Of a stretch of 64,000 nt of DNA, positions 9,541 through 35,324 are shown piece after piece. Position numbers and translations under genes: made by a program. Source of the DNA: Loxodes magnus (taxonomy: Eukaryota > Ciliophora > Karyorelictea > Loxodida > Loxodidae); the NCBI GenBank assembly GCA_946699065.1, contig CAMPDV010001742.1:48064-112063 (forward strand). The letters run 5' to 3'. Numbering within the stretch: position 1 is the first letter of the stretch; each line of letters opens with the position of its first letter. The notes under the pieces are model-generated. The model was not told where the DNA came from. It saw nothing but the letters and a program-made list of their open reading frames with translations, and did no database searches.

Positions 9541-11420
9541 TAGAGAGTAATTAGATTAAACTCTGCTCTACTGAGATTCCTTAAGATCTTGAGGTGCTTT
9601 AACTTAGGATAACAAGTTAACTTTTATTCTTCTAATAAGTTTGATTTCGGACTCACTTATTAGGCTGTAAATGAACTTAATCTGATTTATTTATTTAGAT
9701 AAAGCCCATTAATTTTGAAAGTTTTAAGAGCCTTATCTCGGCTATAATTTAAAGTGATAACTAGATAGACCAGCTCAAAAACTTTAGTCAGAGGAAGTTA
9801 TTTAATGAATTGCAATTGTTTAAGTAGTAAAGAGAGCATATCCTAATTATTACCAAGACTAGATAGTTTAGAGATTTTAATATAAATTGGAATTAACTGT
9901 CTTAGCTTAAACTGCCTAAGGCTTTAGTCTTAAAATTTTGATCAAGCAATGTGAGTCATCTGGAGTTTTAGTAAAAGGCTATAGATCTTACTGTCCAATC
10001 TGAGAAGGAGAACTGCTTGAAGAAGATGAACTGAATAGGAAATATCACAAACCTATTAAGTACAAACTTAATATAAGATTAATATAATAGATAGATAATA
10101 CCTGATCATTATTTTAGTAGACAGCAAAGGTAAAACAATCGCATATCTGAATATATGAGATAGATATCTAATACTTCTAATTTCTAAATTTGCAGAATCT
10201 CAACTTAAATCAAAGTCACATCCAAGATTTCCCATTATCAACTCCAAGAAGCTGATAAAACTGATAGTTAGACAAAACTAAATCTTTAAAGTTGTCAGAA
10301 ATTGAATTTTCCTTAAACTAATTAAAAATTCTGAAAAATCTGGATAGTTATACTTAGTTGTAGTGCTTAAAGTTTCATATTATAAAAGTGAATCTTAAGA
10401 GAAAATGCCCATTAAGATGTAAAGTTTGACTTTCCTTGAAAAGATATACTTACGATAAAATCAATTTGATTGTAAGTATTACCAATTTTAAAGTAGACGC
10501 TAAAGCTCTTAAAACAGAAAGTCAGCTAAGAGACAGTAAAATTAGAAAAGTATGAGTAACAGAATAAAAATTAGAGCTTTAATCAATCTAGTTTAAGAAC
10601 AAGTTAGAGTAACTAAATTATAATATAGTATGAAAGGATTAAAACCTTAGATTAGGATTAAGTAAATGAAAAGAAAAACAAGAACTTAAATTTATGGCTG
10701 GAAATCTTGCTGATCTACTAAATGAGAAAATTAAAATAGCAAGCTATTAAGAAAATTCTTAGTAAAAGTTAAATAACTTAAAGTATGCTAATTAGTAACT
10801 TTTAAAAGGCTAATATCACTTATAGCTGAAAATTAGACTAATTCCAAGAGATGGGTAAGATTCTTTTAAATCCTTTCAGAAAGCTAAGATCCGTTTCACC
10901 TATGGAGATCTTCATTTCATCCATACTTCTTAAGAAATTAAAAAGACTAAGGATTTTTAAAGCTTCATGGTTATCAAAATTTAACACTATCATAACTGAA
11001 AGCACAACTGAACAGACTTAAGATTGGAATGAAATAGTAGCTCTAAAATATAAAGAAGAACTCAATGAAATAAAGCTAAATTCCATTAAATATTTGTTTA
11101 AAAGCATCAAAGAGACATATAAAGAAAAATCTAAGTCTTATTCTCAACAAGCAAGTTAGAATACTATTGGCATTTAATGCGATGCAGCTTGATCATCAAA
11201 GATATAAACTGAAGATTTACAACTTAAGTTTATCGCTAGGAAGATTTTCTAAAATTTTTTGAACAGAGCAATTTAAGAATAAATAAGGTTTAACCAATCT
11301 TGAAAGATAAAATTAAACTAATGAGTAGATATAGAAAAAGTAAGTGAGGTAAAGCAGCTAGATATAGACAAATTAAGCTCTGCTATCCCGGAAGAACTAA
11401 GTAAAAGAAAATTTTTTAAA
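9540..11420 (+). pseudogene. Decayed leucine-rich coding sequence
   Basis: Read with TAA/TAG as Gln, the + strand gives several leucine-rich stretches with spacing like leucine-rich repeats. One at about 10,280-10,370 contains SLKLSEIEFSLNQLKILKNL; another, near 9,850, contains LPRLDSLEILI. From about 10,860 to 11,190 a frame of about 110 codons is open and ends in a charged helical region (KEELNEIKLNSIKYLFKSIK). The good stretches lie in different frames and are cut by TGA, so no single protein can be read. I infer a broken leucine-rich-repeat-type gene. The family call is weak because leucine repeats also arise by chance in such AT-rich DNA. No start or stop is assigned. Confidence 0.35.
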
Positions 11421-11499
11421 TTTATAAAATTTACGAGTTTCAAAATAATTAAACTAAAAAGAGTAATAATAGAAAAGTAGTCAACATTTGTAATTAGAA

Positions 11500-13350
11500 G
11501 CCTTATGATGATAAGACAGAATATTTTTAAATTTTTCTTTACTATCTCCAGATCTACTTGGAGATATTAATTAAAGTAAAGTAATAAATTTAGAAAAAAA
11601 TAATGATAATCAAAATATAAGCGACAGGTTGAATAGTAAAAGGAGCTATGATAAAAAATAATAAAATTTAAAGAATCAAAAAGTTATGTTGTTTCATGAG
11701 TTTTTCAGTAATAAGCTCTCAGATTCAGTTAAATTTAGAAAGCCATTTAAATTCTTATTAGATATACTAGTATAAAAAACTCCTTAAGTTTTATAAAGCC
11801 TATAACAATATTAGAGCGAAAAGGGATTCAATTTATGTTATATGATTAAATAGTTCAGAAAAAATCAGTCTATTCCATTAACTTAAGCTAAACATCCAAG
11901 AAGTTAGGGATATATAGAAAGTTAACGAATGCTAAGATAAAAGAAATGATAATAAGAAAGAGGTAAAGAAGTATACTTTGGCTTAAGGATACAATATCAA
12001 TAAGAATGTCTTATATGAAAAGTTTCTCGTCTACCTTGTTCAAATAGAACCTTGAAAAAAGCTAAAAAGTAATAGCAAATGACTTTAAAAGAAACTTCAG
12101 TATCTAGAAAAAATATCAAAGTATATTGGTTGAATTAAAAAAGTAAGGATTTATGCATAAAATACTAAGAAAATCAAAAATTATCAAAGTAAAATAATAA
12201 ATAGCTGTTTATTAAAGAAAGAAAATCGAGATATCTACTAAGGAAAAAAGGAAATAAAAGAAAAAAGAGCTTTCTAGATTGTAGAGATATATGTAGATGA
12301 GTTTAAATTCACAGATCATTAGATTATTGATTTTGTACTTCAAGATGTTCTAAACTGTTTGAAATAAAAATAGATTGATGAGTACTAAAAGAAAATTTGT
12401 TTAGATAAAAAGAGCCTAAAAAGTTTTTAAATTCAGAGAAGGTCTTGAATAAAGATGCTAGTTGTTAAAAAATGAAGTGATAGTCCTCAAACACGATCAA
12501 ATAGTAGATTTTCTCGTCTAATTAAAAGAACTAAAGTAGACATATTTTCTGAATCAAAATATGTTTATATTACAAGATAAATTTCTGCCTTTAAAAGATT
12601 TAGAAGTGAAGCAATATAATTTAAACTATCGATAAATCACAAGCAAAGACTTTATACATATTCTCTTTCAATAATCAAGCTGTTAAAGCTTGCGGAGAAT
12701 TAAGCATAATTTGGTATGCATAGTAAATTTTTTGATGTAGGATTAAGAAATGATAAGCACTTTGATTTCTTTATCAACGATATCACCAAGAAGGTTTTAA
12801 ATATGAGTAATTTAATATTTTATTGTATAGGTAAAATAGCAAAGAATTGAATGATACTCAGTCTTTAAAGTATTTAATTATAAAAAAAGCTTAGCAGGGT
12901 AATAAAAGATTACACTTATAAATTATATGAACTGATTAACATAAACGCTAACTGAATTTTGCTTCTGTTCACGAAAATTTCAGAATATTTGAGCAAACAA
13001 TAAACTCTTAATATGGATTCAACGTTTCACGGAAGCCCCTTGTGCTACGATAGCTTAAAGCAAATTAAGGAATCAATTATAGCAGAAAGACATAAACCTA
13101 AACTAATTTTCTTTGGCAAAGGAATAGTAAATTCTTTCATTGAAGTATTTACTAGATAATCTTGCCTGGAAACATGAGAAAATGAACTACTAAGCTTCAA
13201 TAATTGTAAAGAGAAGAAATATATAAACTTCATTGAGAAAAACTTTCTTCCAGGCTGCTAAATCTATTTTCTTTCCAACAAAGAGAGTTAACTCAGTTTT
13301 CTATTCTTAAATCTGATTAGCATGGCAAGCTCTAAACAAATGGACATTCT
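11500..13350 (+). pseudogene. Decayed coding sequence, unknown family
   Basis: The + strand carries several coding-like stretches read with the ciliate code. The clearest is at about 12,990-13,250, where a frame contains SKQQTLNMDSTFHGSPLC, then KPKLIFFGKGIVNSFIEVF, then a TGA and a further charged stretch. Upstream pieces such as GMHSKFFDVGLRNDKHFDF near 12,720 lie in other frames. Composition is more protein-like than the surrounding DNA. I do not recognise the family. Frame changes and TGA codons make an intact gene unlikely. A reading frame of 62 codons on the opposite strand at 13,045-13,233 is a shadow of this one. Confidence 0.35.
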
Positions 13351-13359
13351 TCTTATATA

Positions 13360-14730
13360 TCAGCTTAAGCACTTTCTATAATACTCTTCTTTTTAATGGG
13401 TTTAAAATAATTAAATTATCTTCATATGTTTATAATTTATTTGTCAAAATAAGGTTCTGACTTGTCCTCAGTCGCTTTCTTAGGATAAAGATAAATTAAA
13501 AGGAAAAAATTTTAATTTTTATGGGATTGCCAGTTACTCAAGTAAGGGTTAATCAAGATAAACAACCTTGAAGTGAAAATGTTTTTAAGTTCTAGAGTAG
13601 TGCATAGGCCTTTTTACTAAAGTAAAGCATTCTCTTAGTTTATTGAACTAGAATTATGAGACAATTAGTAGTGCTTGAATAACTTGTATTTTTTGAGTAT
13701 CATCTAATGATTAAATTTCTTCTTTTTATTTACTTAATATTAATACAGCTTTATCATAGTTAAGACACCCTAGGTTTAAGTATAGATACTAGCTATCTAA
13801 TTACTATTGAATATTAAAATAGGAAGTAATAAAAATTGCTGATTATTAGTATCCTACTAATAACTACAATATAACTGAAATAAGCTTTATACTAGTAATT
13901 GATAAGCTAATAATTAGCATCTACTTTGAACATCTAGCTTTAAATATTGATAAGCTTACTAAAAGAATGTACATTTAGGTTTTAAATTAAACAAATAAAG
14001 GCATAAGTTATTAGTGTCCTAGTTATTACTTATATTTATATAATATCTTTTAGATAATATTTCAATCTATTATTTCAAAGTATCTTTAGCTAATTAATGT
14101 AAGAATTTTAGACTTATAAAAGCTAATTAAATTCCATAAGAGAAGCATACAAAGATACTAAACTATTACATTCAAGCTTTCAAAAGGGAATAGTATTTCT
14201 CTTGGTGTTTTGCTTAAATGAATTAGAACATTAGAAGGATTAATAATTTACTCATTCACTATTCTTAAAATATTCCTTTAGTTATTTATTAATATATAAT
14301 AACTAACCTATCAAGCACTGCCAACATTATAAACAAGTTTCAGTAAGTAACGTTTCTATTAAGCATAACTGTCTTTTAAAAAGATTATATTATGGGAGAT
14401 CTTAAGATAAACATATCTAAGGAGATTGAGAATATAAAATAGATTTTTTAGAGCTTGAGATTAAATAACTAAATACTAATATTAGCATTACTAGATTAGC
14501 TATAAGAACAATCTTTAAATTGTAGTCCTAACACTATTAATATTAACCTTACTTGCTATAAAGCTATTTAATCCTAATAATACTTCTATTGCTTATTAAT
14601 ATTTTACCTATAATATCATTATTTTATATTTAGCATTAAATATATACCAGTCTAAGTTTTTACTCTCATTTCAATAGTAATCAATCAAGCTTCTAACAAA
14701 CTTACACAAAAAGGCTAAACTCTAATCTAA
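13360..14730. other. AT-rich intergenic region, no gene seen
   Basis: AT-rich sequence with short recurring words such as TATTAGCAT and many runs of A and T. I see no supported coding region or RNA gene. Confidence 0.4.
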
Positions 14731-14734
14731 ATTT

Positions 14735-15120
14735 TTACCTGCTTTTGAAGAATATTACAAAGAAAATAAATCTTAATAGTAAAGTAGAGTGTCTAAGATA
14801 ATTGCTGAAACTAAATTAACTAATATTATTTAAATAAAGCTTCAAAACTTTATTTTAAGACTAAAGATCTTAGATTAAATTCAGTCCCTCTATGATACAA
14901 AAAATGTATAATAAGTAGAATAAATACATTAAAAAGGATTAAATAGAAGTTGATAGAAAGTTGAAGCTTTGTAGTGTAAAGTAGATTCAATTAGATAACT
15001 GCTAGAGAGTCAAAAGATGGGAGTGATTAAGATTATAAATAAATCTAAAACCTTAGTATTAAACTGTAGTTAAATAAGAGATTTATTTTTGGAGAGCGGA
15101 GGGTCTTAAAAGGTATATAT
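14735..15120 (+). pseudogene. Coiled-coil coding fragment with one in-frame TGA
   Basis: With TAA/TAG as Gln the + strand is open for about 65 codons. It starts near YYKENKSQQQSRVSKIIAE and runs through a helical, Leu/Ile/Gln-rich segment. It then meets a TGA after GLNRS and continues in the same frame with QKVEALQCKVDSIRQLLESQ. The heptad-like spacing suggests a coiled coil. The single TGA with no loss of frame fits either a recent nonsense change or the end of one exon. I do not recognise the protein. It runs head-on into the - strand beta-helix remnant that begins at about 15,120. Confidence 0.35.
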
Positions 15121-17640
15121 TTATCAAATAAGGTAATATGACTAAATTATACTCTTATAAACAGTATTTTAGGTCTAGTATATTGAACTGCCTTACTCTA
15201 CTCCTGTAATTTTAGTAAATATGCGATGATAAAAGACGAGAACTCCATCGCTCATTTTAGCAATAGTATCTCCAAACTGAGCCTTATTGCTATTGAACGT
15301 AGAGTTGTGGATTTCAGTGTAATTGATTTGTTATAATATAATAGCACCACCATATTAAGTGGTACTTGTACCTTTACTACCAAGTACGAGTTCTTTACTA
15401 TAAAGCTAACTTATTTGTTCTTAGTTTGTATGCAAGCTGCACTAATCGCGCTGTTATCTGAACAATATAGGTTTTCTATTAGAATAGTGTTGAATGAGTC
15501 TAAATAGATCCCAGCAGATATTTAATTTACTTTATTGCTTTAAATTGTGGTATTACCAAAGATAATATTCGAGGCTTAATCACTAAAAACGCAACAAAAA
15601 TACAACCATTTCCAGAGTAAATTTAAGCTCGTCCTCTATCAAATTGATTGAATCCGTTTCCAGAAACCACCTCCCTTATTGTTAAGGATTTAGCAGCGAT
15701 ATAAAAAGATTACGGGAGTAACTTTTCTTTGACTAAATTAAATATCCATTGCATATACGATACTTCCTAAATCCTGAGAAGAGACTATAATATTATTCTA
15801 AAATTCGCTGTTCATCAAGCATAAGAAAGTGAAACCCTGCATTCCTTCTACATTTATCAGATAAACTCTTTACTGAAACTATTTTTTATTACCTTTAAAG
15901 GTTACTTTATCAAAGATCAGAACACCTTTATGAGACAGATTGAGTAAATACTAACTATAGTTAATATAGCTAATTATCGTATTTTTAAGGATCACCTTTG
16001 AAATTTAATTAGCTATTTCTTTAGATTTGGTCGATTTACTATCTGAAGTCGTTTAATTGTAATCTGTTATAATATGTTAGTCAACTTCAAGAAACTGCTA
16101 TAAGAGTCATTGAAGATGCAGCTATTTATTACCAGATAAGTCAACTAGATATTGCTATCCATGCTAGATAAGAAGATTAGCCTTCCTTTAATTAACCAGT
16201 TCAAGTTGAAAAAAGAATTGACCATTTAAATATTTTTATTAGTTTGAGTTTAATTTAGAGTCAGTAAAGAGAGAATGCCAGCTTCTGATGCTTAATATTT
16301 AACTAGGGTTGGCAATGATATAGAAGGTATCTATAAGTACATTGTCATTAGTTGCAAATATTATAGCTTAATATTCATCTGTATTACTAGAAAAAATAGA
16401 ATTGAAAATACTGAGAGAAATGCCAAAGTCTAGTTAAATAATGAACCTTAGCCAATGCTTGAATGTCAGAGAATATAGTAATTTATATAATAACACTTTT
16501 AAAATATTGGAGATATAGTAATGAAGCATTATTCTGATAGCCATTTATATAATTTTGGGAGAATTAGCTTTCCTTTATATATAGTAGTATGCTAGGAGTT
16601 GATTATCAAAAAGAGAATACATCTTAGGAATTTTATTACTATTAAGGCTATCTATTATCAAAATATCAAAGCCTTGAGAGGTAAAGACCTGCAGTCATAT
16701 AACTTCTAAGAAAATCTTGTTATCGCCTTAGAGAGAAGTTCAGTTACAAGTCTATTTCCACCGCTAGATTCTAGATATCTCTGATTTAAAAAGAAGAAAG
16801 CTCGTTTTCTGAGAGATGGTATAGGAAATATTAATTACCATCTGGCTAGTAGTTTAATGAGACTCCAAAATACTTTGCAAAATTTTAAGTTTCGATGTAA
16901 GAATTATCATTGGATTTTACCTGAAGTAGAGATATTTACAAGTAGTTTTCAATGCTGATAACTGTGGAGCATAAGTTGGAAATAAAGTTAGCAATCTGAA
17001 TGAGTAACTTTTTATCTAAGTTAAATTTAGATCAGGAATCGTTTTTCCACTTACCTCCTTATTGCCTATTTTACTATTATGAAAATCCGAACAGAAGAAT
17101 GTAATTAATGTTTTGGATTTAATTCGTTTACTACATGAAGCAAGTGTTTTCCTTGAAGGTCGAATTCTTTACATTAACATTTGGAATAATAGAGTCTGAA
17201 CTAGTTTATAAGGAAATAATGTATCTTGAGCTCTGATCTTTGTATCCACCGAAATTATTAGTAAATGAACAATTCTCGACATTTACAGTCAGATCTAAAA
17301 TTTGTTTAGTAAGAACGTACTAATAAATATAATCTCCCCGTTCCATGCCAAGTTACTACTAAAGATACAATCCTTGAATAATATACTAGTTACATAATAT
17401 AAATAAATAAAAGCTTGATCACTACAAAATTAATCATTTTAGAAGCAATTTACGATCTTATTTTTATCAAAAATTACTTATGAGATAGTAATATCATTAG
17501 CAAAATAAGTGAAAAGAAAGCCATTTTAAGATACTAGAAGGCTCTAATTCTTTTAGGTATTAAGGTTGTAATCTTATGATTTGCGTTATAAATCATGAAA
17601 AAAATTAAGATCAGTTACTGTTCCTTAGTATCAATAAAAG
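15120..17640 (-). pseudogene. Beta-helix repeat surface-protein pseudogene
   Basis: On the - strand several stretches show the Asn/Ser/Phe-rich repeat of parallel beta-helix (pectin-lyase-like or Pmp-like) extracellular proteins. Examples are VENCSFTNNFGGY near 17,280, ILFKDCIFSSN near 17,380, ISLSIFNSIFSSN near 16,420 and HNSTFNSNKAQFGDTIA near 15,290. Large beta-helix membrane proteins are common in Tetrahymena. Here the matching stretches fall in at least two different frames and TGA codons intervene, for example after LLNKFQI. The gene is therefore broken. No start codon or signal peptide is assigned. The repeat pattern supports the fold, not a function. Confidence 0.55.
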
Positions 17641-17877
17641 GTTTATATTTTTTTTTACTTTTTAATATAATTTGCAGTTAAAAGCACATTTTATTTTTTT
17701 ATTTTTTTTTAATTAAATTTCATATTTTATTAAAGTTAATTTAAAAAATATTAATTTAAAATAATTCTATAAAAATAATTATATTATAATATTTTTTTAT
17801 TTTATTCATATTATTATTATTTAACGTATATATACGTGGATTTTGTTTAAAAGGAAAAGTTTTTTTAAAAATTAATA
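17641..17877 (+). promoter_or_regulatory. Upstream region of the RING gene with a 14-bp palindrome
   Basis: A T-rich, A/T-only stretch separates the - strand beta-helix remnant from the RING gene. At 17,824-17,837 lies the perfect palindrome ACGTATATATACGT, 40 nt before the ATG. Its CG dinucleotides stand out against the surrounding A/T-only sequence. It could be a regulator binding site or part of a divergent promoter. That role is inference; only the palindrome is seen. Confidence 0.35.
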
Positions 17878-19929
17878 ATGTAATCTGAAATGTCCTAGAC
17901 TGCTAAATGTCTTTAGTGTCAAGGAGATTTTAATGGGTAGTTTAAATTCCCAATTTCATTACCTTGCAAGCACAACATATGCTATACTTGCATTCATGAT
18001 TAGTTTTAGAAAAGTTAGGTGATAAAATGCTTTGACTAAAATTGCTAAAGAGTTCATAAGATCCATCCATAAAAACTTCAGGAAGACACTTAGTTACTTA
18101 AGCATCTTGAACAAAAGAACCTCATGGGAAATATAACGATGTTAGTGAATCAATCGTCAAGAATTCGTCAAGCATAAACTTAATTGTCCAAGGTCTACAG
18201 TCTTTTCATCTAGTAGTTGATAAAGCACGTGAGTACTTATTTGTTTAAGGAGAATATCAGCTTACAAAGACAGTTGATTTAACAGGATAAGTAAATCTAA
18301 TAATAGTTGAAGTTTTTCAAACTCTAGAAATAGATGATGGACAAAAAAGGGAGCAGCTAGTAGTAGATCGTTTGTTAAGAATCTCCATAGAATGAGCAAT
18401 AAGTTTCAAAATTGATAGCTGATGTTTAAAGAACCATCTAGAAGAGCAATCAGGTATCGGTAAAAGTTTTTGAGGAGCTAGACTCTTGCAAGTTTAATCT
18501 AACTTAAGTGACATAGGAAAATAGTTACTTGAAGAATGAGATCTAAAAGTTGAGAGACTAAATCTAAAATCAATAATAGTAGTTATCATCTCTGCAAGTT
18601 AAGTAAATCGAATAGTAACAAGTAAAGCTTTAAGTGATATAGCCTAAAAAAACTCAATAACCTAAAATTATCCCTAAACAGGCTAAGCTATAGGACATCT
18701 AGATAACTATCGTATCGCCAAACAATAAAACAGCAACTTTATCAGTAAAGCAAGAGACTACTATCGGTTAGATAAAGAAATAGATCGAATCATAAACTGA
18801 TTTATTACCTGACGGTTTGAGTATCGTTAAGAATAAGGTTATATTGGATGACGGTTAAACAGTAGCGAGTTAAAAGTTGTTGAATGGTGAGAGGTTGCAA
18901 ATGGAATTAAGTAAGTTCAAATTTAATTTTCTTAAATAATAATATAGACGGTAAATAGATTTTATAACTTAAATAAAGAGCAAGGTGAGTTTAAGATTTA
19001 CTTTAATTAAAAGGATGTAAGTCTTAAATAATATTTCAATAATAGGGAGTAAGGATTTAAGTATAATATTTAGATGGTAAGTTAGTATTTAATAATGATT
19101 TAGAATGTAAGTTTCATTTCAAATGTTTCGCGATAAGATTGTAAGTTTCATTTTAAATGTTTCGTAATAAGATTGTAAGTTTCATCTTAATAATTATTAC
19201 TTAATTTAGGTAAGTTAAATTTTAATAATTAACACTTAAGCATGTAAGTTAAAGTTTAAGGTGAAAATGAAGCATGTAAGTTAAAGTTTAAGGTGAAAAT
19301 GAAGATGGTAAGTTAAAGTTTAAGGTGAAAATATAGTGAGTAAGTTAAAGTTTAAGGTGAAAATGAAGATGGTAAGTTAAAGTTTAAGGTGAAAATGAAG
19401 CATGTAAGTTAAAGTTTAAGGTGAAAATGAAGTTGGTAAGTTAAATTTTAATAATTAACACTTAAGCATGTAAGTTAAAGTTTAAGGTGAAAATGAAGAT
19501 GGTAAGTTAAAGTTTAAGGTGAAAATGAAGGGAGTAAGTTAAAGTTTAAGGTGAAAATGAAGCAAGTAAGTTAAAGTTTAAGGTGAAAATGAAGCATGTA
19601 AGTTAAAGTTTAAGGTGAAAATGAAGCATGTAAGTTTCATTTTAAAAATTTACACTTAAGATCGTAAGTTAAAGTTTAAGGTGAAAATGAAGAATGTAAG
19701 TTAAAGTTTAAGGTTACATTTAGAACGTAATGTTCTATTTTAGGTTGTAAGTATTTTTTTATAGGTTATTTTTTAGATCGTAATGTGTTTAATATTGATT
19801 TAGGTGGTAAGTGTAATTTTATGGTTAATATAGAATGTAAGTAATTTTAACATTATAAGGGGGTAATGAGGTTTTTTAAATAAATATTTAGGATGTAAGG
19901 GAATAATATTTTGTTATGTAGTGTTTTGA
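17878..19929 (+). CDS. RING finger / coiled-coil / ubiquitin-like protein with microexon 3' end
   Basis: Predicted ubiquitin-pathway protein, probably a RING-type E3 ligase. With TAA/TAG as Gln the first exon (17,878-18,910) is open for 344 codons. The RING is C11-x2-C14, C30-x-H32-x2-C35-x2-C38, C51-x4-C56; the last pair is spaced by 4 instead of the usual 2. Gln-rich coiled coils follow at about 122-160 and 202-255. Residues 272-344 resemble ubiquitin: QITIVSPNNKTATLSV, then TTIGQIKKQIESQ, then a final strand ERLQMEL. Coding then passes into the microexon array. Phase-1 joining gives a 33-residue tail (NEQGWNEYYSSYVNAFAY, then GTTSYQQRYREWGLF) and a TGA at 19,927-19,929, 377 residues in all. 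If the introns were retained, the first in-frame TGA is at 19,096. It is the only long, domain-bearing frame in the window without a break. RING and ubiquitin-like calls are firm; the splicing is inferred. Confidence 0.8.
19201..19216 (+). other. Zero-length exon junction (possible recursive splice site)
   Basis: At 19,209/19,210 the sequence TTTAG|GTAAGT places a 3' splice site directly against a 5' splice site with no exon between. Splicing could remove 19,175-19,240 as one 66-nt intron, or in two steps as in recursive splicing. Both outcomes leave the reading frame unchanged. The juxtaposition is seen; its use is inferred. Confidence 0.4.
19244..19692 (+). repeat. 32-bp tandem unit: identical 29-nt introns, variable 3-nt exons
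   Basis: Eleven copies of one 29-nt intron, starting GTAAGTTAAAGT and ending GAAAATGAAG, are identical. They begin at 19244, 19276, 19340, 19372, 19404, 19470, 19502, 19534, 19566, 19598 and 19664. Variants begin at 19308 (ending AAAATATAG) and 19696 (ending TTACATTTAG). A second 31-nt intron type occurs at 19,210-19,240 and 19,436-19,466, and a third related type at 19,107, 19,141 and 19,630. The trinucleotides between the identical copies differ (cat, atg, tga, ttg, gga, caa, atc, aat). The unit is 32 bp, so it is not itself a coding repeat: one frame in three meets TGA. Confidence 0.9.
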
Positions 19930-20500
19930 GAGTGAAGGACATTACGAACATATTTAAAACTTTACTTAATTAAGAATTAAAAAAATATCTATATTTATAA
20001 TTAATATTTTCTAATATACTATAGAGTAGGTATTAATAAGTTTACTCTATAAGTATGTGTTTTTTAAGATATAATAATTTATATAAGTTTACAATTATTA
20101 GATAGTTTCTAAGTATTTGGATATTATATTATTGTATATTCAATAAATATCCAGAAGTAGTGTTAATCTTAAGATGTTGTTAAAGAGTAGTTTAGAGAGT
20201 TAGAGTAATAAATAAATATTGTAAAATGGCTGTGAAGTAGGTGAGTATAGGTGGATAAAGTTTGAATTAGAATCTTATTAAAAGGTTATATTATATGTTT
20301 TTAAAATTTAATTTATTTCTTAGGTTTTAGTTTGTAAGTATGCAATATGTAAATAATTTTAGTTTGAATAATTTTAAGTCTGAAGTATTTTATATATTTA
20401 ATAATGTGGATATTAAAGTAAAATTAATATTAAAAGAGTTTCGCAGAATTTAATTTTAAAAGAGTGTTGGGGAGTATTAGGCATATAAAAATTTATTTTT
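19930..20500 (+). other. 3' flank of the RING gene
   Basis: After the predicted stop the + strand stays very poor in C and fairly rich in G to about 20,480. I find no further domain. GTAAGT-like words continue near 20,330, so extra 3' exons of an untranslated region are conceivable. No terminator or polyadenylation signal can be assigned with confidence. Confidence 0.3.
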
Positions 20501-21990
20501 TAATTTTTTGTAAGTTACTTAATTTCTTTTTTTTTTTATTTTGAATTTTATGAATAGAAAAATTTTTTTTAGATTTTTTTAGATTTTTTTTAGAAGTAAG
20601 TTTAATTTTTTTTTTATGAATTAAGTTTCAATTTTTTTTATGTTATTTAGAATTTTTTTCGAAATTTTTTTAATTTTTTAGATTTAGAAATTTTTTTTTT
20701 AGATTTTGCTCTATTAGAATGTTTTTTTTAATCAAAGTAACATGTTAAAAAATAAAAAGTAAATTTGTTTAGTATTTTTTTTTTTTTAGTATTATGTTAG
20801 TTTTTTATTATTATGTTAATTTTTTTTAATTGTATTTGTTTATTTAAATATTTTTATTCTTTGAATTTGTATTTCAAGTATCCAAAATTTCAAAAATTTT
20901 ATTTTTGTTTTTTTGCTCAGCGTTTTGCACTACAAGAGATTTTTTGTGACGGACCAACCTTGTGTGAATTGGGATAATTTTTTGAATGGTAACAGGGGAA
21001 ATTAAAAAAATTAAAGTGTATGATTGGTGATAAATTTAGAATAAGGACTGAAAAATGAAAAATGGATTTTAATTAAAAAAGTTTTTTTCAAAAGGAAAAA
21101 CGGAATAAAAGTCATTTTAGAGATTTTTTTAGAAAAAGTTCTTAAAATTTTAATTTTTTTTTATACAAAAAATTTTTTTTCGAAAGAGAATTTAGAAATG
21201 TATTTTTTTTTTTAATAATCGGTTAAAATTTCCGTAAATTTTTGTTTTGTTTTTAATTTCATTTTTTTTCGATTTTTTTTAACACGAACATTTTTTCGGA
21301 TTTTTAAAATTAAAAAATTTTTATTTTTTTTGTCATAAATTCAAAAAGGATATAAGTTAAAAAAGCAAAAATTTTATTTTTGTTTTTTTGCTCAGCGTTT
21401 TACACTGCAAGAGATTTTCGGGACGGAACAAACTTGCGTGAATCGGTATAAAATTTTTGGAATGGGAATAAGGGCAATGTAAAAAGTAAAAAGGTATTTT
21501 TATTGATATTTTTTAATAAGAACTGAATAATGTGTAAATGAATTTTTTTATTTAAATAGTTTTTCAAAAGGAAAAACGGAATAAAAGTTATTTTAGGACA
21601 AAAGTTCTAGAAAAAAGTTTTTATAAGCAGCTCAAAATTTAAAAAAGGTCCAATTTAAAAATTTTTTTTTTTTTGGATTCAGTCTATTTTTTTTCAATAC
21701 AAAGCTATTTTTTTCGGATTTATATAAAAGCAAAACTTAATTTTTTGTCATAAATTCAAAAAGGATATAAGTTAAAAAAGCAAAAATTTTATTTTTGTTT
21801 TTTTGCTCAGCTTTTTACACTGCAAGAGATTTTCGGGACGGAATAAATCTTTTTCAAAAATTTTTATGTTTGCAAATATTCTTATCTAAGAAAATCTTTT
21901 AAAATTTAAATTTTTTTTAGAAAAGATGAAAAATAAAGATTTTTTTTTATCGTTTTAAATTTCTTACTTGTTTTTTTTTACAAACAACTT
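20501..21990. repeat. Poly-T-rich region with three 415-475 bp direct repeats
   Basis: The motif TTTTTTTGCTCAGC followed by TTTT(A/G)CACT(G/A)CAAGAGATTTT occurs three times, with GCTCAG at 20,915, 21,390 and 21,805. Upstream of copies 2 and 3 is the same block CATAAATTCAAAAAGGATAT. Downstream of copies 1 and 2 comes CAAAAGGAAAAACGGAATAA. The rest is long runs of T on the + strand. No reading frame is supported. The conserved cores are the least AT-rich parts. They may be a local satellite or degenerate copies of a small transcribed unit. Confidence 0.7.
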
Positions 21991-24900
21991 AAAAGACAAA
22001 AAAAATATTTAGAAGGTTGATAAATATTAAAAAAAATGCAATTTTTAGCATAATCATCTTAAAAATATCTAGAATGGCTTTCAATGAGTTTTAAATTTAC
22101 ATAAAATATATTTTGCTTACCTAATTTTAAAAAGAATTCGAATGAGAAATAATAATATTTTTGATTTTTGATTTATTTTTTTTAAATAAATTAAGATCTA
22201 GTTTAAAAAAAATACGTACTCTGTTTTTGAAAATAAAAATAAAAAATTATAAAATTTAAAAGATTTAATAATTAAGTAAATAGAAAAAACTGTATCTGAA
22301 AAATAAGTTAAAAACTAAAGCATAAAAAATCTGAATCTATCTAAAATAAAAATATTGCTCTTACTTAATTTAAATTGAAAATATTCAGAACTAAATACAA
22401 AAAGAACTTTATATCGAAAATAAAAAATAAAACAAAATTAGAATCTTAGTTGAAGTAAAAATAAAGACATTAGTTGTTATATATATAGCTATTTAAAAAT
22501 AAGATTTTGTTAATCTTTAAAAACGCTTAGAACATTTTAGATATAGTTACTTTAAAAAAATAGTTTATTAAATTCGTCATAAAAAAATTAACATTTAACT
22601 ATAAACCACTAAGTTAAAGGTAAAAAATCTAAACGCCCTGAATTTAATTGAAATTTTTCATTAAAATATAATGTATCTTAATTAAATCTATTATATCTAA
22701 TATATTATAAAACATCTCTAAAGATTTAAATTTACTTAATTCTCAAAATAAATAAATAACTTAATAAAATGTACTAAGTTTCTTATAATGGACTTAGATG
22801 AGAGTAACATATTAAAAATCCTAAATGTAATAGAAACTATTGATTTAATCATAGTTTAAGCAAAAAATTATTTTAATTTAATCTTTCATAAAAAATAATA
22901 TATCTATTTTTGATAAAAGTAGATTAATAGAAGAAAATTAGTTCACAGTTAAATTCTCTAAGGTAAATATTTAATAATCTTTTTATCTTTTAATCAAGAT
23001 TCTTATGTACTAAATTTTTACAATTTAAATATTTGACTGAAATATAAATTCCAATTTATTTATAAAAGTCTTACTCTACTAGTGCAATGTTTTAAAACTT
23101 AATAGAGACATATAATTAAAAAAATTATCAAATAAAATCTTTAAATGCATTATAAAACTTTAAACTATAATTAAAAAAGAGGCAAGCAATGAATATTCAT
23201 AGGAAATTTTATTAACATTTAATTAATCAGAAGTAAATTTTTTATAATAATCATTTATGTATTCTTTTTATCGAATAGTATTACAGAAATATTAATAATG
23301 AAAACATAATCTCGAAAAGTATTTTCTCATATTAATTTTATAAATTTATTTAAAATAGCTATAAATAAATATTATTAAATCATAAATAAAACATTTAATT
23401 AATACTATCTAAAATATTATTAAACTCTATTTAAATAAATTTAATAATAGTAATAACAAATAATATAAAAGAAGTCTCTAAATAAATAGAAATTAAAAAT
23501 AATTTTCGAACCAAATTCATCAAAATTAAATGAAATTATAAAAAAAGAGTATTTAACAAAATTTTGATAAATTATTAAAAAATAAATTATATCTTGATCA
23601 GAATTTATAGAATTAATTTTAAGTAAAACTAAGATCAATTTTTATTTAAATCTATAACTTAAAATCTTAATCTAATTTAAAACTTCGTTTTAATAAATAA
23701 ACTAATTTAATAAAAAAAGCAAAAATTCTTTATTGCAAATAATAAGAATTAAATTATCCTAATTATTTAATAAACTGATGATCGAAAATAATTTTCTTTA
23801 TCTTAGATAAGAAAAATAAATTTCGAAAAAAAATTAGTATCTAAAATTAGTTGAAGAAGATAAAAAAAAGTAAACGAAAAAAAAAATTAGCAAAAAAATT
23901 ACATAAATTTAATAAAATTTTCCTTTGTGTATGTACTTTTTTTTAATTATAATAAAATACTGCTATTTTTTTCTAAATAACTTATTTTTGACATGCTCGT
24001 ATCTTTTAAATTTTATAAATATTATTAAAACATTTTAATAATTTTTAATTTTTTTCTACATAGGTAAATTTTAGACGTTTTGACCTCTTTCACTTTTTAG
24101 ATATTTGTAAAAATGTTTAAAGATTAAAATAAACATTTTTGTTCTGCTTTCTATTTATACAGTTTATCTAAAGATCAATTTAAAATTAAAAAAATTATTA
24201 CATCATAATTTTTCTTCTGAAATTAGTCTATAAATTATCAAACTTCTTAATTAATAAAGAAAATACCGACATCACGTATATTTGTTTAAATAATATCGAA
24301 AAGAAGCAATAGGAATTATTTGTATATTATTTGTTACTGAAAAGGAAAAGAAAGTAGATTAAGAGTTAAAAAAACTGTAAAAGCATACAAAATTATAAAA
24401 TATATATTTCTTTTTTATTGTAAAAAATTTAATAAAAAAATTTTCAAATTCTCGAGAAAGTAAGAATAGTTTGCTTTTAAGTTTATTTTTAAGTTTTACT
24501 CCTAAAGATAGCAGAATACTATTTTAGGGACATTGATTTATAAAATATTTTGTTTGAGCCTTATTAGTTCATATTATTATTCAAACTAGAAAATTCTTCT
24601 TGCGAAGAAAAAAATAATATAAATGTTTTCGAAGATATTCAAATTATCAGAGATATTAAATGAATTTAAAAAATTACATTTGAAGTAAACGCGGTAATTT
24701 TTTTTTTCTGGGACACAACACTCAATTTTTAAAGCACGGTAAAAATGATATAAATGTTTTAAAAATGAAACATTTATTTAAATGTTTATCTGTTTAACAT
24801 AAAAAGAAGTTATAAAATAAATTATTTGAATAAATCTATTAGTAAATCTAAACTTAGTTGAATTAGATAAATAGTAAAAGTTATACTTTTTCTTGAGTAC

Positions 24901-27240
24901 GGAGCCAAAAACAATGTCTCGGATTTTCTCATAAAAAAAACTCTTTTTATTTAAAAAAAAACTTAAACATCATAAAAATTTAAAATTTTATCTTTTTATT
25001 GTAACTTTAAATTATTTTAAAAATTAAATTTATTTATAATAAATATTTTAATATCATTTAAGATTCTTATTTACACTTTATTTAAATTTAAAATGAGAAA
25101 AAGCATTTTTATCTTTGATAGTAACAAAAATTCTAATAGGTAATTCTTAATCTCTTTTTCATCTTGAGAAATTAATAAATTTAGAAAAAAACTATTTTAA
25201 AAAATAAATGTTTCCTAATTTTTATTTGATATAAATGCAAAATTATTTTTATAAAATTTCTTGTATTTTGATAAATTATTTCTTCGAACTTTTAAATAAA
25301 AAATAAAGGAAATAAAATTAATGAATTACTTTTATTTAAATCCAATTAAAAGAGATTTTAAATAACTTAAATTAAAAGAATAAAAATTTTATTTTTTTAA
25401 ACAAATAAATACATTATTTTCACAATATTTTTATGTAATAAAAAACATATTAATATTTATAAATAATAAGAAAAGTATTTTTTAAACAAACAATTACAAA
25501 TGTTTAACAAAATCTTAAATATGGAATAACAAAAAAGTTTATCTTAGTTTAATTATTTATAAATCTTTTTCCAATTTTTATAAAATTTGAAAAACATATT
25601 TAAAATGAGAAATTTTTTAAATTTAAAGAAAAATAATCATCATTTTAATTTTTATTAAATTATTTTTAATGATTAAAGAAATCTTATTAAGCAATAATTA
25701 CATAAATTATAATTTATCACTAAGATAGAAAAATACTATTCAAAAAAGCATTTAAAAAAATTAAAAAAACATAAAAATTTATAGATAAAAATGTAAGAAA
25801 ATATTGAAGGATGAATATTTTAACCTGAATATTCTTTAGTTATTTTTATAAAATTTATAAGCAAAAGATATTTCATAAAATAATTATGAAGGTATGATAT
25901 TTGCCTGCTTAATTCCAGAAATTCTGCAATTATGTTTATTATTTAAAATATTTAATTTCTTATAGTTTATTTCTATGACTTATTATTTAAACTTTTAGAT
26001 AGTGAATAAGAATTTTAAATTATTAATTTTTTAAAATTAAAATAATTTTTTAGTAATTAATATTTAGTATTATTGTTTTTCATTTAAATAATGGAATTTT
26101 CTAATATATATGTTGATATATATATATATATAAATAATAAAAATGATAGAAAAATAAAATTTAATCTTTTAGAATTTATAATTTTAAAGGATAGTTTTAG
26201 TTAAAATATTTTAAAATGAAAGAAATAAAGTAATTTAATTATAGTTAAATATTTTATGTAAGTATGATTTTCTTATTATTAGCAATTTGATATAGCTTAT
26301 TTAAATTTTTTTACTGGCATTGATATAATAATTAATTTTACATAATTATAATTATAATAAGTTTAATTAAATTTTTATATATAATTTAATAATTTATTCT
26401 TAACTTTTAAATATAATACAAGTTAGTTAATTTTATTATTATAATTACTTATATTATTTAGAACTAAAACTTATATATTCATTAAATTTATAAATATTTA
26501 TAATTCTTTATTAATTTTATTTTATGCAGTTATCTCTAAAGATATGTTTTACTATATTTACTTTTTAATTCACTAAATTATTGTTTTAAATATTGTAGTC
26601 ATTAATTATCAAATGTGAACCTTTATATTTTTATAATCTAGTAATCAAATGCTTATTGTTAACCAATTATTAAAAATTCATATCAAAGATATGAAAACTT
26701 CCTTTTTATTAATTTTAAATTGATACAAAGATAGATATTTCTAGCTAAGCATATAATTATTATTTAATTTTAGATTTTTGATATAGTATTTTTAATATTA
26801 ATATCTTACTATTATAAAGTATTATTTTACTATATTTTGCTATCATTTAGAATTTTATATTATTAAAGTCATAAAGCTAATGTTTCGTTTAACTTTACTT
26901 AGAACTAAAATTCCTTTAAGGTATTTTTTCCTTTATATTCTTAATGTTTTATTAATTAAAGTTAAATAAATAGTTCTTTAAATAATTCGTTAGCAATTTA
27001 AATAGTTTTTAGAACTTAAATTTTATTATTTATTTATAAAAATAAATTGTATAAATTAAAGCTATTTAGTAATAATATTTCATTTTAATAAAAGAATTAT
27101 TGTAAGAAACTGTTTATTTAAATTTAAATTTTAAAATAAAAAAAATTTTAGACATCTATAACTGCAAGAATTGCTTCCTTCAATGAGACTCTAATAAATG
27201 TTTTTAATGTTTTTTAATAATAATCTTGATCTCCTAAACT
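21991..27240. other. AT-rich region, no gene seen
   Basis: More than 5 kb of almost pure A/T with short homopolymers and an (AT)n run near 26,115. I see no domain, conserved RNA or larger repeat on either strand. The 65-codon frame at 23,441-23,638 is low-complexity Ile/Phe/Tyr sequence expected by chance. Confidence 0.5.
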
Positions 27241-27249
27241 TTTAATTAT

Positions 27250-28270
27250 TCTCGTTTCAGTCTCTCTTTTATGTCTTCCTTTTTTACTTTTTCCATTTCA
27301 TATAAATCTAAACTTTTTGACAAGTGAAAACGATTTTTAAGGGTAAAAGGAGGTTTATAACTTTTTGTAGGAGTTGTATGTGGAATTTCTGATCGGAAAA
27401 GGCAGGAATGGGAGGAGTAGGCAATGACAAGAGAAAACAATTTTTAGTTTTAAAATATTTCATCAAAATTAAGGTTTATTTATTGAAGTTTGTTTCCTTT
27501 TTTCACACTTTTTAGATTTAGAATTTTAGAATTTTTTCAATTACATATTCAGATTTTTTTAATCTTTTTTTTAGTTATAATACTGTCTCATATCTCTTGC
27601 AGCTTACTTTCAGCATATTTTTTTAGCCCTTTATTTTTTTTATTGGCTTTGCTTTCTGATTAGTTTTTTCATAAATTTTTCCGATTTTAAAACTTTTAAG
27701 ACATATAGCTTTTTTTGATTTTAAATTTTTCTCTTTGTTTTTTTAAGCGCTAATGAGTAAGTACTTCTTTTCTTTAAAGTAATTAATCTATTCTTCTGAG
27801 TATTAGCTTTTTTTTTAATTTTAAATTCGATTTCCCTCTTCCTTCGTGACTACTGAAATAACTTTTATTTAAATACATTTTAGGGTTTTACTTCTATTTC
27901 TTCTTCGTTTTTTTTATCTTTCTCTGTTCATTTAAGTGTTTATCTTTTTTATTAAATCCTTTATCGAAGATACTTTTTCTCTTTATTTTCTCAATTGCCT
28001 TTTTTTCCTCCTTATTCTTATTCTTTTTTTTTCTTTTGTACTTATTTGATCATAGAATTTTTTGCAGCTTCTTCACTCAGATTTCTTTCGAATCGCGAAA
28101 GTATCATTTCTTCACTTTTTTTTGTTTTATCTTCTTTTTCTTTTACTTCTCTTTTTTTATAGAATGTTACTTTCTGCGCTTTTCTAGCTTCTTTTTAGTT
28201 TTTCCAGTCTATTTAATCAGCCACTCCAAGCTAGAATTTTTTATTTCGGACACACATATAACCGATAGAT
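27250..28270 (-). pseudogene. Lysine-rich charged coding remnant
   Basis: The - strand is extremely A-rich and, with the ciliate code, reads as a Lys/Glu/Gln-rich protein. One stretch near 28,180-28,020 contains RFERNLSEEAAKNSMIKQ; another from about 28,005 contains EEKKAIEKIKRKSIFDKGF and runs about 125 codons to a TGA. The two lie in different frames. It lies just downstream of the NACHT pseudogene on the same strand. Low-complexity basic proteins are frequent in ciliates, so no function follows. A short + strand frame at 28,036-28,287 is its shadow. It may be a broken gene or A-rich noncoding DNA that translates as Lys by composition alone. Confidence 0.35.
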
Positions 28271-28299
28271 TCAAAGACGTAAATTAGTAATCCATCCAA

Positions 28300-30828
28300 T
28301 TCAATATCGTTATACTATTAGTTGCCGCTATTTATAAAGAAACATTAGTACTGGACATTCTCACTATCTCCAATAGATTTTATTACACACTTGTATTATT
28401 ATTTGCAGAATTTGAATTATAAATTTCTCTCACAAACTTAGTATCTTTAGATTGTTCACTATCAAAAATTTATTTATATTGTGAACCTCTATTTCTTATG
28501 CCTTAGCGGATGAAACTAAATCTATAATATTCTTTGCCACATAATAATCTCTTATTGCCGCATGAATAAACTCAAATCTCTTTTTATTATTCTATTCCTT
28601 TATCTATATCAAACACCCTATATGGTTTTAGTCGTCCGTAAACTACTCTATCCACTTTTGATTCACTTTATCAAAGCTTGATATCTCCACCGATCCCTGT
28701 AACATCTCCCATGCCGCATTCACTTAGATACTTTCAAGCAACTTTATTTACTAGTTGAGCACCTTACTTTTTAAACCCTGATTTTACAATTTTTCTTAGG
28801 TTCTTTTGTTTCACTAAACTATGAAAATCTCATATATTCTAGACTTTTAAACTACTTAACCACTTTTTAAATAATCTAATATCTCTTCCTCACTCAAACA
28901 AATATATAGCAGAAAGGGATTACTGATAATTTCTTTCAGACCAGGTATTCTCTATATTAATGCCATCATCTCTTATATTTAAGATGCTTCCACTTGACTT
29001 TAAACTTGACTTGCACTTTATTATTACTGGTTCTTCTTAACTAGGACTTTTTCTATATATTTTTCTATCTAAACGATATCGAATGGCTTTATATACAGTT
29101 CCTATAACTCTTATAATTAGACTCTTTCGCTACTGTATGGTGAAAAATAATGTTGGTAATTTTTTCTTTTAATACATAATTTACTCTACATGTTATTATA
29201 TATTTTGCCTGAGGATACTTTTGCTTTAATTTATTACTACTGATAATAGCCTTGCATTCTCCCAACTCATCATACGCGTCAAATAAGAACAGAATCTTTC
29301 TAAATTTAAATGTCTCATTTCTTTCTATTTAATAATTATCTAAAGCAGATTCTATTAATTTGTCTTCGAATGCTTTTATAGTTGGGAGATACACATATAT
29401 GGATAAGTATTCATGTTTCTAGTCTAGATATTTTAAGGCTAAAATCTTCAGGAACAAGGACTTTCCAGAACCGGAATCTCCCAGAAGTAATAATCCTGTC
29501 TTAGTATCGTTTTCTAAAAATTTCAAAATTTCAAGGTCAAGATCATCCTCAGCTTATGAATTAGGATTAGGAGCGCAAAGTAAGCTTACGTAATATTCTT
29601 GCTTCTCCGAAACCTCTTCTTTTAAAGTCCTTATCATATTTTAATATATACTACTGCTAATGCCCTTAAGTGCCAACCAATTCTCTTCTATTGTTTAGTA
29701 AATAAAACAAAATGCTCTGGATCCATTAATAATTCTAGAATTATCTAACGCTCTTTTACATTCTTCTTAAGTTCTCTTTTTTAACTTAAATATTCTTTCC
29801 TTATAAGTGCAAGCTATTTGGTTCTTTTCTAAAGTCAATTCCAAAAATGTCTTCATTGCATAGTACCTTATCTACCAATCCTTGTCGTCACATAGTTTTT
29901 CTAAAAGTTTACATGAGTCTTCTACCAATTCTGCACTAGCTTACGGGTTTTTTATCATGTGTTTTAGAAGATAGCATGCTCTAAATCTTAAGTCTATTTT
30001 TTCTTTCAAAACAATATCTCAAAATTGATAAAATTTTTATTTTGAGTATTGTCTCACTAAATCACATGCAAGAGCATCTAAGACTCGTAATCTAATAATC
30101 TTTTTATAGTTGAGCTTCTAATTTACCCAACCTTTTCCTCATAAGAAAAACTCCTTTATAATAGAGATCGCTTCTAACCCTATAACTCCAACTCCAAACG
30201 TCAAGACAATTATTCATTAAGCAACTTTTAAAATCTTACATAGAATTCCAAAATATTCGGTTTCTTTGCTATCTGGAATATTCTCCAGAATCATCAAACT
30301 AAATCTTAAGTAAAAATCTAGTTCTGGACATCCAATCCTATTTTTATTTTTATTTACTAACTTTAAGCTATCATTTATTTTTAAAATGAGCTCTTCTTTT
30401 GTTTTTTTATTTATAAAGGAGTTTTACTCGTTCTTCTAAAGCAACATAGCCAATAACTCAGGAAGATTTCGTACAAGCTACTCTTTCAAAAGCAAAGACC
30501 ATTCTTCAGCATACTTATGGGAAATAATTTCAATGAATTGATTTATAAGAACTAATGGATCATTGATATTGGCAAACTTATTCTTTTGAATTGTTTGAAT
30601 TCCTTGTAGAACTTTATCCATCTTTTATTCATTCAAACCTTCTTTTAAGAGCTACAATCCTTCTTGATAAATCTTTTGTTCCTTATTACCAAAAACTTGT
30701 TCATCTTATGAATCTAGGAAAGTTTAACTCTCTTTATGATTCTTGTATTCATATTCATTCATTTAATTATTTGTAGTTTAGCGTTCATCCCTTTCTAGTG
30801 TCTTTTGATTGTTATTAATAGTTTTCAT
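28300..30828 (-). pseudogene. HEAT-repeat / NACHT NTPase pseudogene
   Basis: A STAND-type NTPase relic, likely a sensor or scaffold when intact. A likely start is MKTINNNQKTLERDER at 30,828; ATG 30,969 is also in frame. Helical repeats follow (FGILCKILKVA; DKDWQIRYYAMKTFLELTL), then Walker A LLLLGDSGSGKSLFLKIL at about 29,490, and Walker B KILFLFDAYDELGE at about 29,290-29,245, followed by KYIITCRVNYVL. Later segments match the NACHT C-terminal part: NPFLLYICLSEEE, then RFEFIHAAIRDYYVAKNI at about 28,570. In-frame TGAs lie at 30,214-30,216, 30,139-30,141 and 30,019-30,021 within otherwise collinear repeats. The frame shifts near 29,080 and again between 28,830 and 28,600. The domain calls are firm; the gene is broken. 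The + strand frame at 30,591-30,776 is a shadow. Confidence 0.8.
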
Positions 30829-31272
30829 AAAGAAAGGAGAACCAAATCGGATTAAAAGAACATGTAACTTTAAGAATTCATTTGTCTAGTTTTATTACTG
30901 AAAGCCTTGATAGTTTCTCAGAACTTAACTGAAAAGATAGCAATTCGAATTGCAAATTCCAGTAAACATTTTATTATCTTAAAGACTAAATTCTCTTAAA
31001 TACCTTAAATTATATAAAACATTAAATAAAATCAATTAATATTAGCTTTATCTTCTATAATTGTAAAAGCTAATTGTCTAAATAAGAAACAATTAAATCA
31101 TTTTATACTCTAACTCTATAAACCTAAAACTAATTAAAGTCAGCTAGCTTTAAATTAAGTCTATTAAATAGATTTAATTCTTAAATATAGAAAAAAGAAA
31201 AAGAATCTAATGAATCACAATTAAAAAGCTAATAAGTAGATAAGTAGCAAAGTATCAAATTGAAAAATAGCT

Positions 31273-31288
31273 AATTTATACATGTTAA
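31273..31288. repeat. Target-site duplication, left copy
   Basis: AATTTATACATGTTAA, 16 bp, identical to 32,134-32,149. The two copies flank the retroelement insertion exactly. Confidence 0.9.
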
Positions 31289-32133: not shown

Positions 32134-32149
32134 AATTTATACATGTTAA
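32134..32149. repeat. Target-site duplication, right copy
   Basis: AATTTATACATGTTAA, the second copy of the 16-bp duplication at 31,273-31,288. Confidence 0.9.
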
Positions 32150-35320: not shown

Positions 35321-35324
35321 AAGA

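Follow-up and report, generated by a model that had tools for sequence, protein, structure and literature searches.

Introner elements and intron gain by tandem duplication give rise to many near-identical introns, which are multiplied together with their splice sites. The micro-exon genes (MEGs) of schistosomes have exons of 6-36 nucleotides (nt) (PMC5825161), recursive splicing, known from Drosophila, subdivides long introns while the ratchet exon is skipped (PMC8605326), and single ultra-short exons have been described, one of 1 nt in APC11 of Arabidopsis and one of 3 nt, the smallest exon subject to alternative splicing (PMC4674806). In Loxodes magnus, whose macronuclear (MAC) assembly comprises 706 Mbp, introns have a mean length of 19.3 nt and a mode of 17 nt, and 93% of them are no longer than 25 nt (PMC11441545). 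The gene described in the following belongs to the same organism group, the karyorelicts and heterotrichs with their tiny introns, and lies in a stretch of 64,000 nucleotides of L. magnus (contig CAMPDV010001742.1, positions 48,064 to 112,063, assembly GCA_946699065.1), referred to as the window. Analysis of the window and of the genome around it points to a multigene family whose first exon codes for a RING finger followed by a ubiquitin-like (Ubl) domain and which quite probably encodes its C-terminal tail codon by codon, by means of a chain of tiny phase-1 introns.

Like the MEGs, this family has long runs of tiny symmetric exons that would allow frame-safe gain and skipping, is a multigene family and has variable protein segments, but it differs from them in exons of exactly 3 nt, introns of 17-37 nt, a run of about 30 exons, the RING-Ubl context and a minisatellite centre. 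Held against the description of MEGs, the 573 internal exons of 18 gene copies form a short symmetric run (lengths of 0, 3, 6 and 15 nt, with the 6-nt slot set by rule), while the size range of 6-36 nt does not apply, 535 of them being 3 nt long. Isolated ultra-short exons show splicing to be feasible for exons of 1-3 nt, but one exon is concerned there (PMC4674806) and a chain here. AG|GT junctions as in recursive splicing were detected in 15 of the 18 chains, one to three in each (none in L029, L042, and L047), and stepwise joining to a growing 5' exon would be the natural route for splicing of the chain, with the difference that nearly every step would here leave one codon in the mRNA. Introners differ in that the units of the chain are multiplied where they stand, each bringing along a variable 3-nt exon; at the loci read, the 32-nt unit that builds the centre of the chain was seen after the RING-Ubl exon and in satellites, with no insertion into ordinary exons. 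Regarding the spliceosomal introns of L. magnus, the chain segments resemble them in being GT..AG and very short (17-37 nt) and are longer than their mode of 17 nt. An earlier note on this DNA, made from the sequence, knew of no described gene of such a kind, and a literature search, for which subscription papers were mostly out of reach, likewise yielded no recognised description of single-codon exon chains; the intron section on L. magnus treats lengths only, and the abstract and the passages cited contain no mention of such a chain (PMC11441545). We rate the chain as a variant of the micro-exon architecture, far beyond the range known to us.

Exon 1 (17878..18910, plus strand, as are all parts of the gene) starts with the ATG at 17878 and has a length of 1,033 nt, that is 344 codons and one further nucleotide, which sets phase 1; it is free of in-frame TGA (TAA and TAG taken as Gln), in agreement with the intact 344-codon first exon of the earlier note. 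The intron chain (18911..19921) was parsed as 32 GT..AG segments of 17-37 nt each. The 31 internal junctions are all in phase 1 and measure 3 nt in 29 cases, 6 nt in one case (18979-18984, where 0 or 4 nt are also permitted by the sequence and 6 was chosen by the analyst) and 0 nt in one case (AG|GT at 19209/19210). The description of the tail as split into about 30 microexons, nearly all single codons, thus holds, as do the segment lengths and the 3-nt spacers with a single one of 6 nt given in the earlier note, from which the 0-nt junction had been omitted. Beyond the last segment, which ends at 19921, the last exon (19922..19929) reads TG TTT TGA (Leu-Phe-stop), so that the joined frame stays open as far as the TGA ending at 19929, as had been proposed; the last exon is closed by a TGA of the same frame in the copies with listed sequence. 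Translation of the array without splicing was ruled out, since the first TGA is then met at 19096 and a total of 10 TGAs occur in the part of the sequence that was read.

Within the chain, fixed slots with non-satellite introns at the N-terminal side (18911..19106) carry the exons ACG, AGCAAG, GAT, GGA, ATG, and AAT, which together with the last base of exon 1 spell the tail start N-E-Q-G-W-N-E. They are followed by variant units of 34, 34, and 35 nt (19107..19209), the third of which closes with the zero-length exon (AG|GT), and by a minisatellite-like centre (19210..19695), in which 12 units measure 32 nt (a core intron of 29 nt and a 3-nt exon) and three units 34 nt (an intron of 31 nt and a 3-nt exon), and the exon words of which are, in order, CAT, CAT, ATG, TGA, ATG, CAT, TTG, CAT, ATG, GGA, CAA, CAT, CAT, ATC, and AAT. 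The C-terminal fixed slots (19696..19921) have introns of 28, 17, 30, 24, 27, 23, 29, and 27 nt and the exons AAC, GTT, ATC, GTG, AAT, GGG, and GAT, reading ..R-Y-R-E-W-G- in phase 1. The longest run of GT..AG segments of 16-38 nt at 3-nt spacing is 23 (18905-19935). It never exceeds 4 in 300 first-order Markov sequences matched in composition, the other spacings from 0 to 9 nt reach at most 7 in this region, and three control regions of the window give a run of 1 at 3-nt spacing. Because the 32-nt units are mutually homologous and hence non-independent samples, the independent evidence lies in the diverged end introns and in diverged chains elsewhere; both keep the geometry, the latter in spite of strong divergence, which bears out the view that more than one satellite motif is involved.

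Search of the genome (705,730,643 bases in 7,843 contigs) with exon 1 gave 360 first-look candidates, and the 40 of these that were scored are all approximately full length with identities of 91-100%. At 24 loci the length of exon 1 was determined; it is 1,027 or 1,033 nt at 23 loci, two values 6 nt apart that keep the same frame, and 1,031 nt at L033. Arrays were parsed at the 19 of these loci that have the exact array end motif, while L021 and L027 are cut by the locus ends and L022, L026, and L045 are without the end motif; the chains parsed have 27-47 introns. In the 18 copies without frameshift, the internal exons (n = 573) comprise 535 of 3 nt, 18 of 6 nt, 18 of 0 nt and two of 15 nt, with none off-frame, which extends the reported rule of exon lengths in multiples of 3 and uniform phase 1 from the window to all of these copies; L033, the 19th copy, combines a frameshifted exon 1 with the sole 4-nt exon. 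The parser used for this count favours an AG 3 nt ahead of the donor, fixes slot 2 at 6 nt and skips GTGAGTAA decoys, and a neutral rule, which takes the last AG ahead of the following donor, likewise gives 3 nt at nearly every slot in the 19 copies. Three contigs (L030, L031, and L036) have identical array parses and exon-1 identity and are not independent, representing either recent duplicates or separately assembled haplotypes. No TGA is found between the ATG and the final TGA in 15 of the 18 copies.

The way in which the copies differ follows the same geometry. Among 13 fixed slots, segment length differs by non-multiples of 3 in eight and by 3 in two, and is constant in three (for two of which differently parsed rows were set aside), and the exon words of these slots remain 3 nt despite the changes in intron length (slot 2: 0 or 6). 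In the 16 non-redundant copies, none of the 52 splice dinucleotide columns is variable, compared with 77 of 297 columns of intron interiors (P 9e-7); gaps affect 41 of the 297 interior columns, and the only gaps in exons are two of 3 nt, both in the last exon.

A genome-wide pattern of two successive 3-nt exons between introns of 17-25 nt gave 31 matches, which are non-independent, several coming from one family and at least three carrying the end introns of the window's family, compared with none for the reversed pattern and with 0, 1, and 0 for exon sizes of 2, 4, and 6 nt, respectively. Seven of the pattern loci were examined (L051-L057). A Ubl-type exon followed by an intron chain is present in L052, L054, and L057, the introns of which have mean pairwise identities of 0.70-0.73, compared with 0.65 for shuffled interiors; in L053 and L056 no exon was visible upstream of the chain. 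The nearest AG lies exactly 3 nt ahead of GTAAG at 70 of 85 sites in L052, L053, L054, L056, and L057, compared with 8 of 175 isolated donors. Regarding the Ubl end of L057, 149 matches of 39-91% identity were obtained (best 150 of 416 candidates scored), and the two picked from them, L058 (49%) and L059 (46%), both run on into chains, that of L059 being in phase 1 without a stop. The longest chains at 3-nt spacing number 23 (L054), 21 (L053), 18 (L056), 17 (L058), 15 (L057), 13 (L059), and 12 (L052), with a Markov maximum of 4-5 for these loci, and five of the seven diverged chains (L052, L054, L057, L058, and L059) follow a Ubl exon. The middle of the L058 chain is a 34-nt repeat, and a spacing of 7 therefore also runs to 10. 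L052 looks decayed; 11 nt of the exon end found in L057 are absent from it and one donor is lost. At L056 (C77), 21 introns of 17-25 nt with 3-nt exons are present, and the locus is perhaps a different gene, because only phase 0 is open and phases 1 and 2 contain TGA. Two further pattern loci, L051 (C913) and L055 (C520), are chains of satellite type in which the intron core is another one, of 24 nt, and the 3-nt words vary; no host gene was seen there.

In phase 1, as set by exon 1, the end of the tail reads YREWGL in the window, L041, L057, and L058. The exon words run TAT, ATC, GTG, AAT, GGG, GAT, and TG in the window's family (with GTT for TAT in the window's own copy), TAT, ATC, GAG, AAT, GGG, GTT, and TA in L057, and TAT, ATC, GAG, AAT, GGG, GAC, and TG in L058, so that the resulting codon differences in phase 1, CGT/CGA, GGA/GGT and TTG/TTA/CTG, are synonymous without exception. 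The same differences change amino acids when read in phases 0 and 2, and phase 2 contains TGA in the family of the window. The introns between the YREWGL exons are little alike across the three families: among 18 pairings of six introns, 11 have P >0.05 and seven P ≤0.05 compared with shuffled interiors. Within the window's family, YREWGL ends 9 of 15 readable copies. We take the synonymous pattern at YREWGL as the strongest sign of joined and translated single-codon exons, and since this peptide is spelled by single-codon exons with synonymous differences at three diverged loci, the exons are probably translated at least sometimes.

Exon 1 itself encodes a RING finger of the C3HC4 type (residues 11-56), recognised by its zinc-ligand pattern, a Gln-rich spacer, and the Ubl domain (residues 276-342), which forms the C-terminal end of the exon and was detected by Pfam and PDB profile searches. 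The RING ligands Cx2C..CxHx2Cx2C..Cx4C (C11, C14, C30, H32, C35, C38, C51, and C56) are unchanged in seven of seven copies, with the limit that the RING of the window protein scores under the Pfam cut-off and the assignment to a RING family is weak. The Ubl profile PF00240 was matched by seven of seven members of the exon-1 family alignment (best E 4.2e-7), the window protein itself reaching 25.2 bits, slightly short of the cut-off of 25.4, and the exon-1 Ubl profile hits ubiquitin chains in the PDB search. Exon 1 evolves under purifying selection, the mean pairwise ratio of nonsynonymous to synonymous substitution rates (dN/dS) being 0.38 (23 copies, L033 left out).

The centre of the chain shows a different distribution of variation, its MINISATELLITE units combining an intron of 29 nt that stays constant with a 3-nt exon that is hypervariable. 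Ten arrays supplied 1,655 units of 32 nt, cut at GTAAGT so that positions 1-6 are fixed by the method; in these, core positions 7-29 depart from the consensus by at most 1.7%, compared with 53, 44, and 40% at the three word positions, and 23 of the 64 words are used. The 32-nt unit also builds long arrays outside the gene. At L022, L026, L027, and L038, a long array lies beyond the 5' end of the gene and opens abruptly with GTGATAAGTT after an A-rich run; these arrays point away from the gene, and no coding exon is visible there. Regarding the order of words, 3- and 4-grams common to different arrays do not exceed shuffles, 5-grams among gene arrays are slightly above them (4 vs. at most 2 in 100 shuffles), and mutual information (MI) between adjacent words, not above shuffles, gives no sign of selection on word adjacency; block inheritance of satellite words between loci was therefore set aside as having little support, the gene-array 5-grams alone exceeding shuffles. 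Within arrays, block repeats exceed all 200 shuffles in C3602, C1505, and C7251 and in none of the other seven. Candidate explanations for a uniform intron with a variable slot are rapid unit turnover from a common pool, diversifying selection on the tails, or a process directed at the slot. Among the 548 intact units of five anchored satellites (merged units left out), 16 have another spacing. The 2- and 4-nt words of the array-only contigs C6847, C675, and C4762 had been considered as a loss of geometry, which was dropped, such words being rare in anchored arrays; in the analyst's judgement they look like consensus errors.

Regarding the choice of acceptor, both the AG at nt 17 (AG17) and the AG at nt 29 (AG29) are present in 213 of 219 core units of gene arrays, AG29 only in four and AG17 only in two. 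The homogeneous core units could accordingly use the proximal acceptor, with 17-nt introns (GTAAGTTAAAGTTTAAG), 15-nt GTGAAAATGAAGNNN exons and a tail of x-E-N-E-x pentapeptides, and with 3-nt exons elsewhere only. In its favour, 17 nt is the modal intron length of L. magnus, AG17 and AG29 are 12 nt apart, the AG17 reading of the window (12 core units) is open to the same TGA, and AG17 is kept in 215 of the 219 units; AG29, however, is kept in 217 of them, and the 31-nt units of the same arrays and most introns of the chains in L054, L057, L058, and L059 end exactly 3 nt before the following donor with no such paired acceptor, which points to the distal AG as the ancestral acceptor. We consider this proximal use in the core units less likely than not, yet a live alternative for the 12 of the window; exon skipping and acceptor use at nt 17 are both possible. 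Removal of the whole array in one piece, as a single intron of roughly 1 kb, or by large random blocks with the 3-nt exons mostly skipped and their symmetry harmless, is improbable. It agrees with exon 1 ending and the last exon resuming in phase 1, with the open frame of one-step removal (..QMELMF-stop) and with the donors and acceptors of the core units being all alike, but is opposed by the single-codon exons of YREWGL at three diverged loci with synonymous differences only, by the GT and AG kept in every end segment (0 of 52 columns) and by the tiny introns reported for L. magnus in the passages cited (PMC11441545). A non-coding satellite with chance GT and AG, the geometry of which would reflect common descent only, could draw on the long arrays of the 32-nt unit outside genes and on the 231 Mbp of low-complexity tandem repeat given for the published MAC assembly (PMC11441545); it is very improbable and already contradicted by the evidence at hand, since diverged chains retain the geometry after most of the unit sequence is lost, indels occur in introns and not in 3-nt exons, and the deviating spacings of anchored satellites have no counterpart among the exons of the 18 gene copies, none of which is off-frame. 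Hardly credible at all is the view that the segments are internally eliminated sequences (IES), removed at the DNA level in nuclear development. IES are well known in ciliates and the segments are short and AT-rich, but the assembly fits the 706-Mbp macronuclear assembly, in which IES would already be gone, none of the canonical type is reported as found in L. magnus in the passages cited (PMC11441545), the boundaries are GTAAG..AG, and the exon lengths obey the reading frame.

Several observations weigh against the reading of the chain as single-codon exons. Under the neutral rule, slot 2 measures 0 nt and some rows are off-frame (11 nt, and one of 1 nt), which are read as decoys from words such as TGA and AGA, and the core unit has the in-frame second acceptor at nt 17. 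An upstream in-frame TGA is present in 3 of the 18 copies, in exon 1 of L029 and L049 and in the tail of L038, where it may mean Trp in this genetic code. The Ubl exon of L058 has a TGA as the triplet preceding its phase-1 base, which in this code would mean Trp if it is coding, and a second donor 5 nt upstream would yield phase 2. At YREWGL, 6 of the 15 copies deviate, with CEWGL in L030, L031, and L036 (one array), YLEWGL in L043, YCEWGL in L044, and YRKWGL in L050, and two of the three families compared for this peptide rest on one locus each. The 29-nt introns exceed most of those reported for L. magnus in the passages cited (PMC11441545). Exon columns vary no more rarely than intron interiors in the 16 copies (18 of 50 vs. 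77 of 297), and an extra constraint on microexon substitutions within the window's family was not found (8 of 29 vs. 46 of 165 columns); since exon columns vary no less than introns, this shows that constraint in the window's family lies on geometry and not on most tail residues. Our confidence in the single-codon reading is slightly lowered by the TGA found in the Ubl exon of L058 and by the copies of the window's family whose amino acids depart from YREWGL. The microexon-chain interpretation is supported, most of its predictions at the sequence level having been borne out.

The flanks of the gene are also repeated. The region 14673-26261 of the window was matched in parts of other exon-1 loci, and 29000-29900 has 497 candidate copies in the genome, of which the 40 that were scored have 98-100% identity. 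Among the matches listed, exon 1 and 29000-29900 co-occur on 11 contigs besides that of the window and lie 10.9-12.9 kb apart on nine of the 11 (11.1 kb in the window; not on C496 and C41); the shared flanks at similar distance indicate that the gene is part of a larger unit, either a dispersed element or a segment that is repeated. A gene with a weak NACHT/STAND NTPase match (28966-29958, minus strand, E 4e-4 to 1e-3) marks this second region, which among the matches listed usually has a RING-Ubl gene copy at a distance of 11-13 kb. Pfam scans covering six frames of 10,001-18,002 and 19,931-29,502, together with the minus strand of 27,500-35,002, detected neither reverse transcriptase nor transposase, and the weak NACHT/STAND match was the only one at E ≤0.01; two further weak matches of bacterial type appear at E ≤0.1 on the plus strand of 10,001-18,002. 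The window further contains an inverted repeat (35308-39339 and 48344-52335) with arms of about 4 kb, 80% identical and 9 kb apart, a direct repeat of about 0.5 kb (20891-21432 and 21366-21847, 73% identical), traces of which are present in several copies of the element, and short tandem repeats of TTTTTTTAG and GAAGTAAGTTT motifs downstream of the gene (20562-20642). Viral contigs gave no match to either the protein of exon 1 or the 29-nt core, nor did Rfam and tRNA scans across the window.

In the mechanism proposed for the single-codon chain, each tiny intron would be recognised singly, by intron definition, and then removed in turn, every splicing step appending one codon to the growing 5' exon, with the few AG|GT junctions serving as ratchet points. 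Units could be gained, lost or skipped with the frame left intact, since all exons are single codons of the same phase. The middle of the chain would behave as a minisatellite nearly invisible to the protein, with one variable residue per 32-nt unit, and the ends would be held more firmly than the middle, in particular the terminal (Y)(R)EWGL. The predicted tail after exon 1 has 28-49 residues in the copies that read through, with an N-x-x-G-W start in most, a variable centre, and EWGL near the end in most. Transcription, this order of splicing, translation and any function of the tail are our inference; the geometry with its conservation, frame, GT/AG constraint and persistence in diverged chains, the synonymous differences at YREWGL among three loci and the purifying selection on exon 1 are observed.

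As a tentative extension, possible but in our view not probable, the loci may represent a gene class built codon by codon, that is, a dispersed Ubl superfamily with tails written by single-codon exons in an intron minisatellite that turns over, in which the 29-nt intron would be the cassette frame and the 3-nt exon a hypervariable slot, so that a different in-frame tail between fixed ends would be carried by most copies, a repertoire produced by the dynamics of the intron satellite and possibly involving a mechanism that diversifies the slot. If the codon-by-codon reading of the tail is true, this would be the most finely split protein-coding region known to us, with dozens of consecutive one-codon exons across a diverged superfamily. 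It would be a strict test for exon and intron definition, with donor and acceptor 3 nt apart thirty times, and would show a minisatellite living in a coding gene almost without a trace in the protein. It would also be a warning that gene finders and spliced aligners, which place 3-nt exons poorly, may miss such genes.

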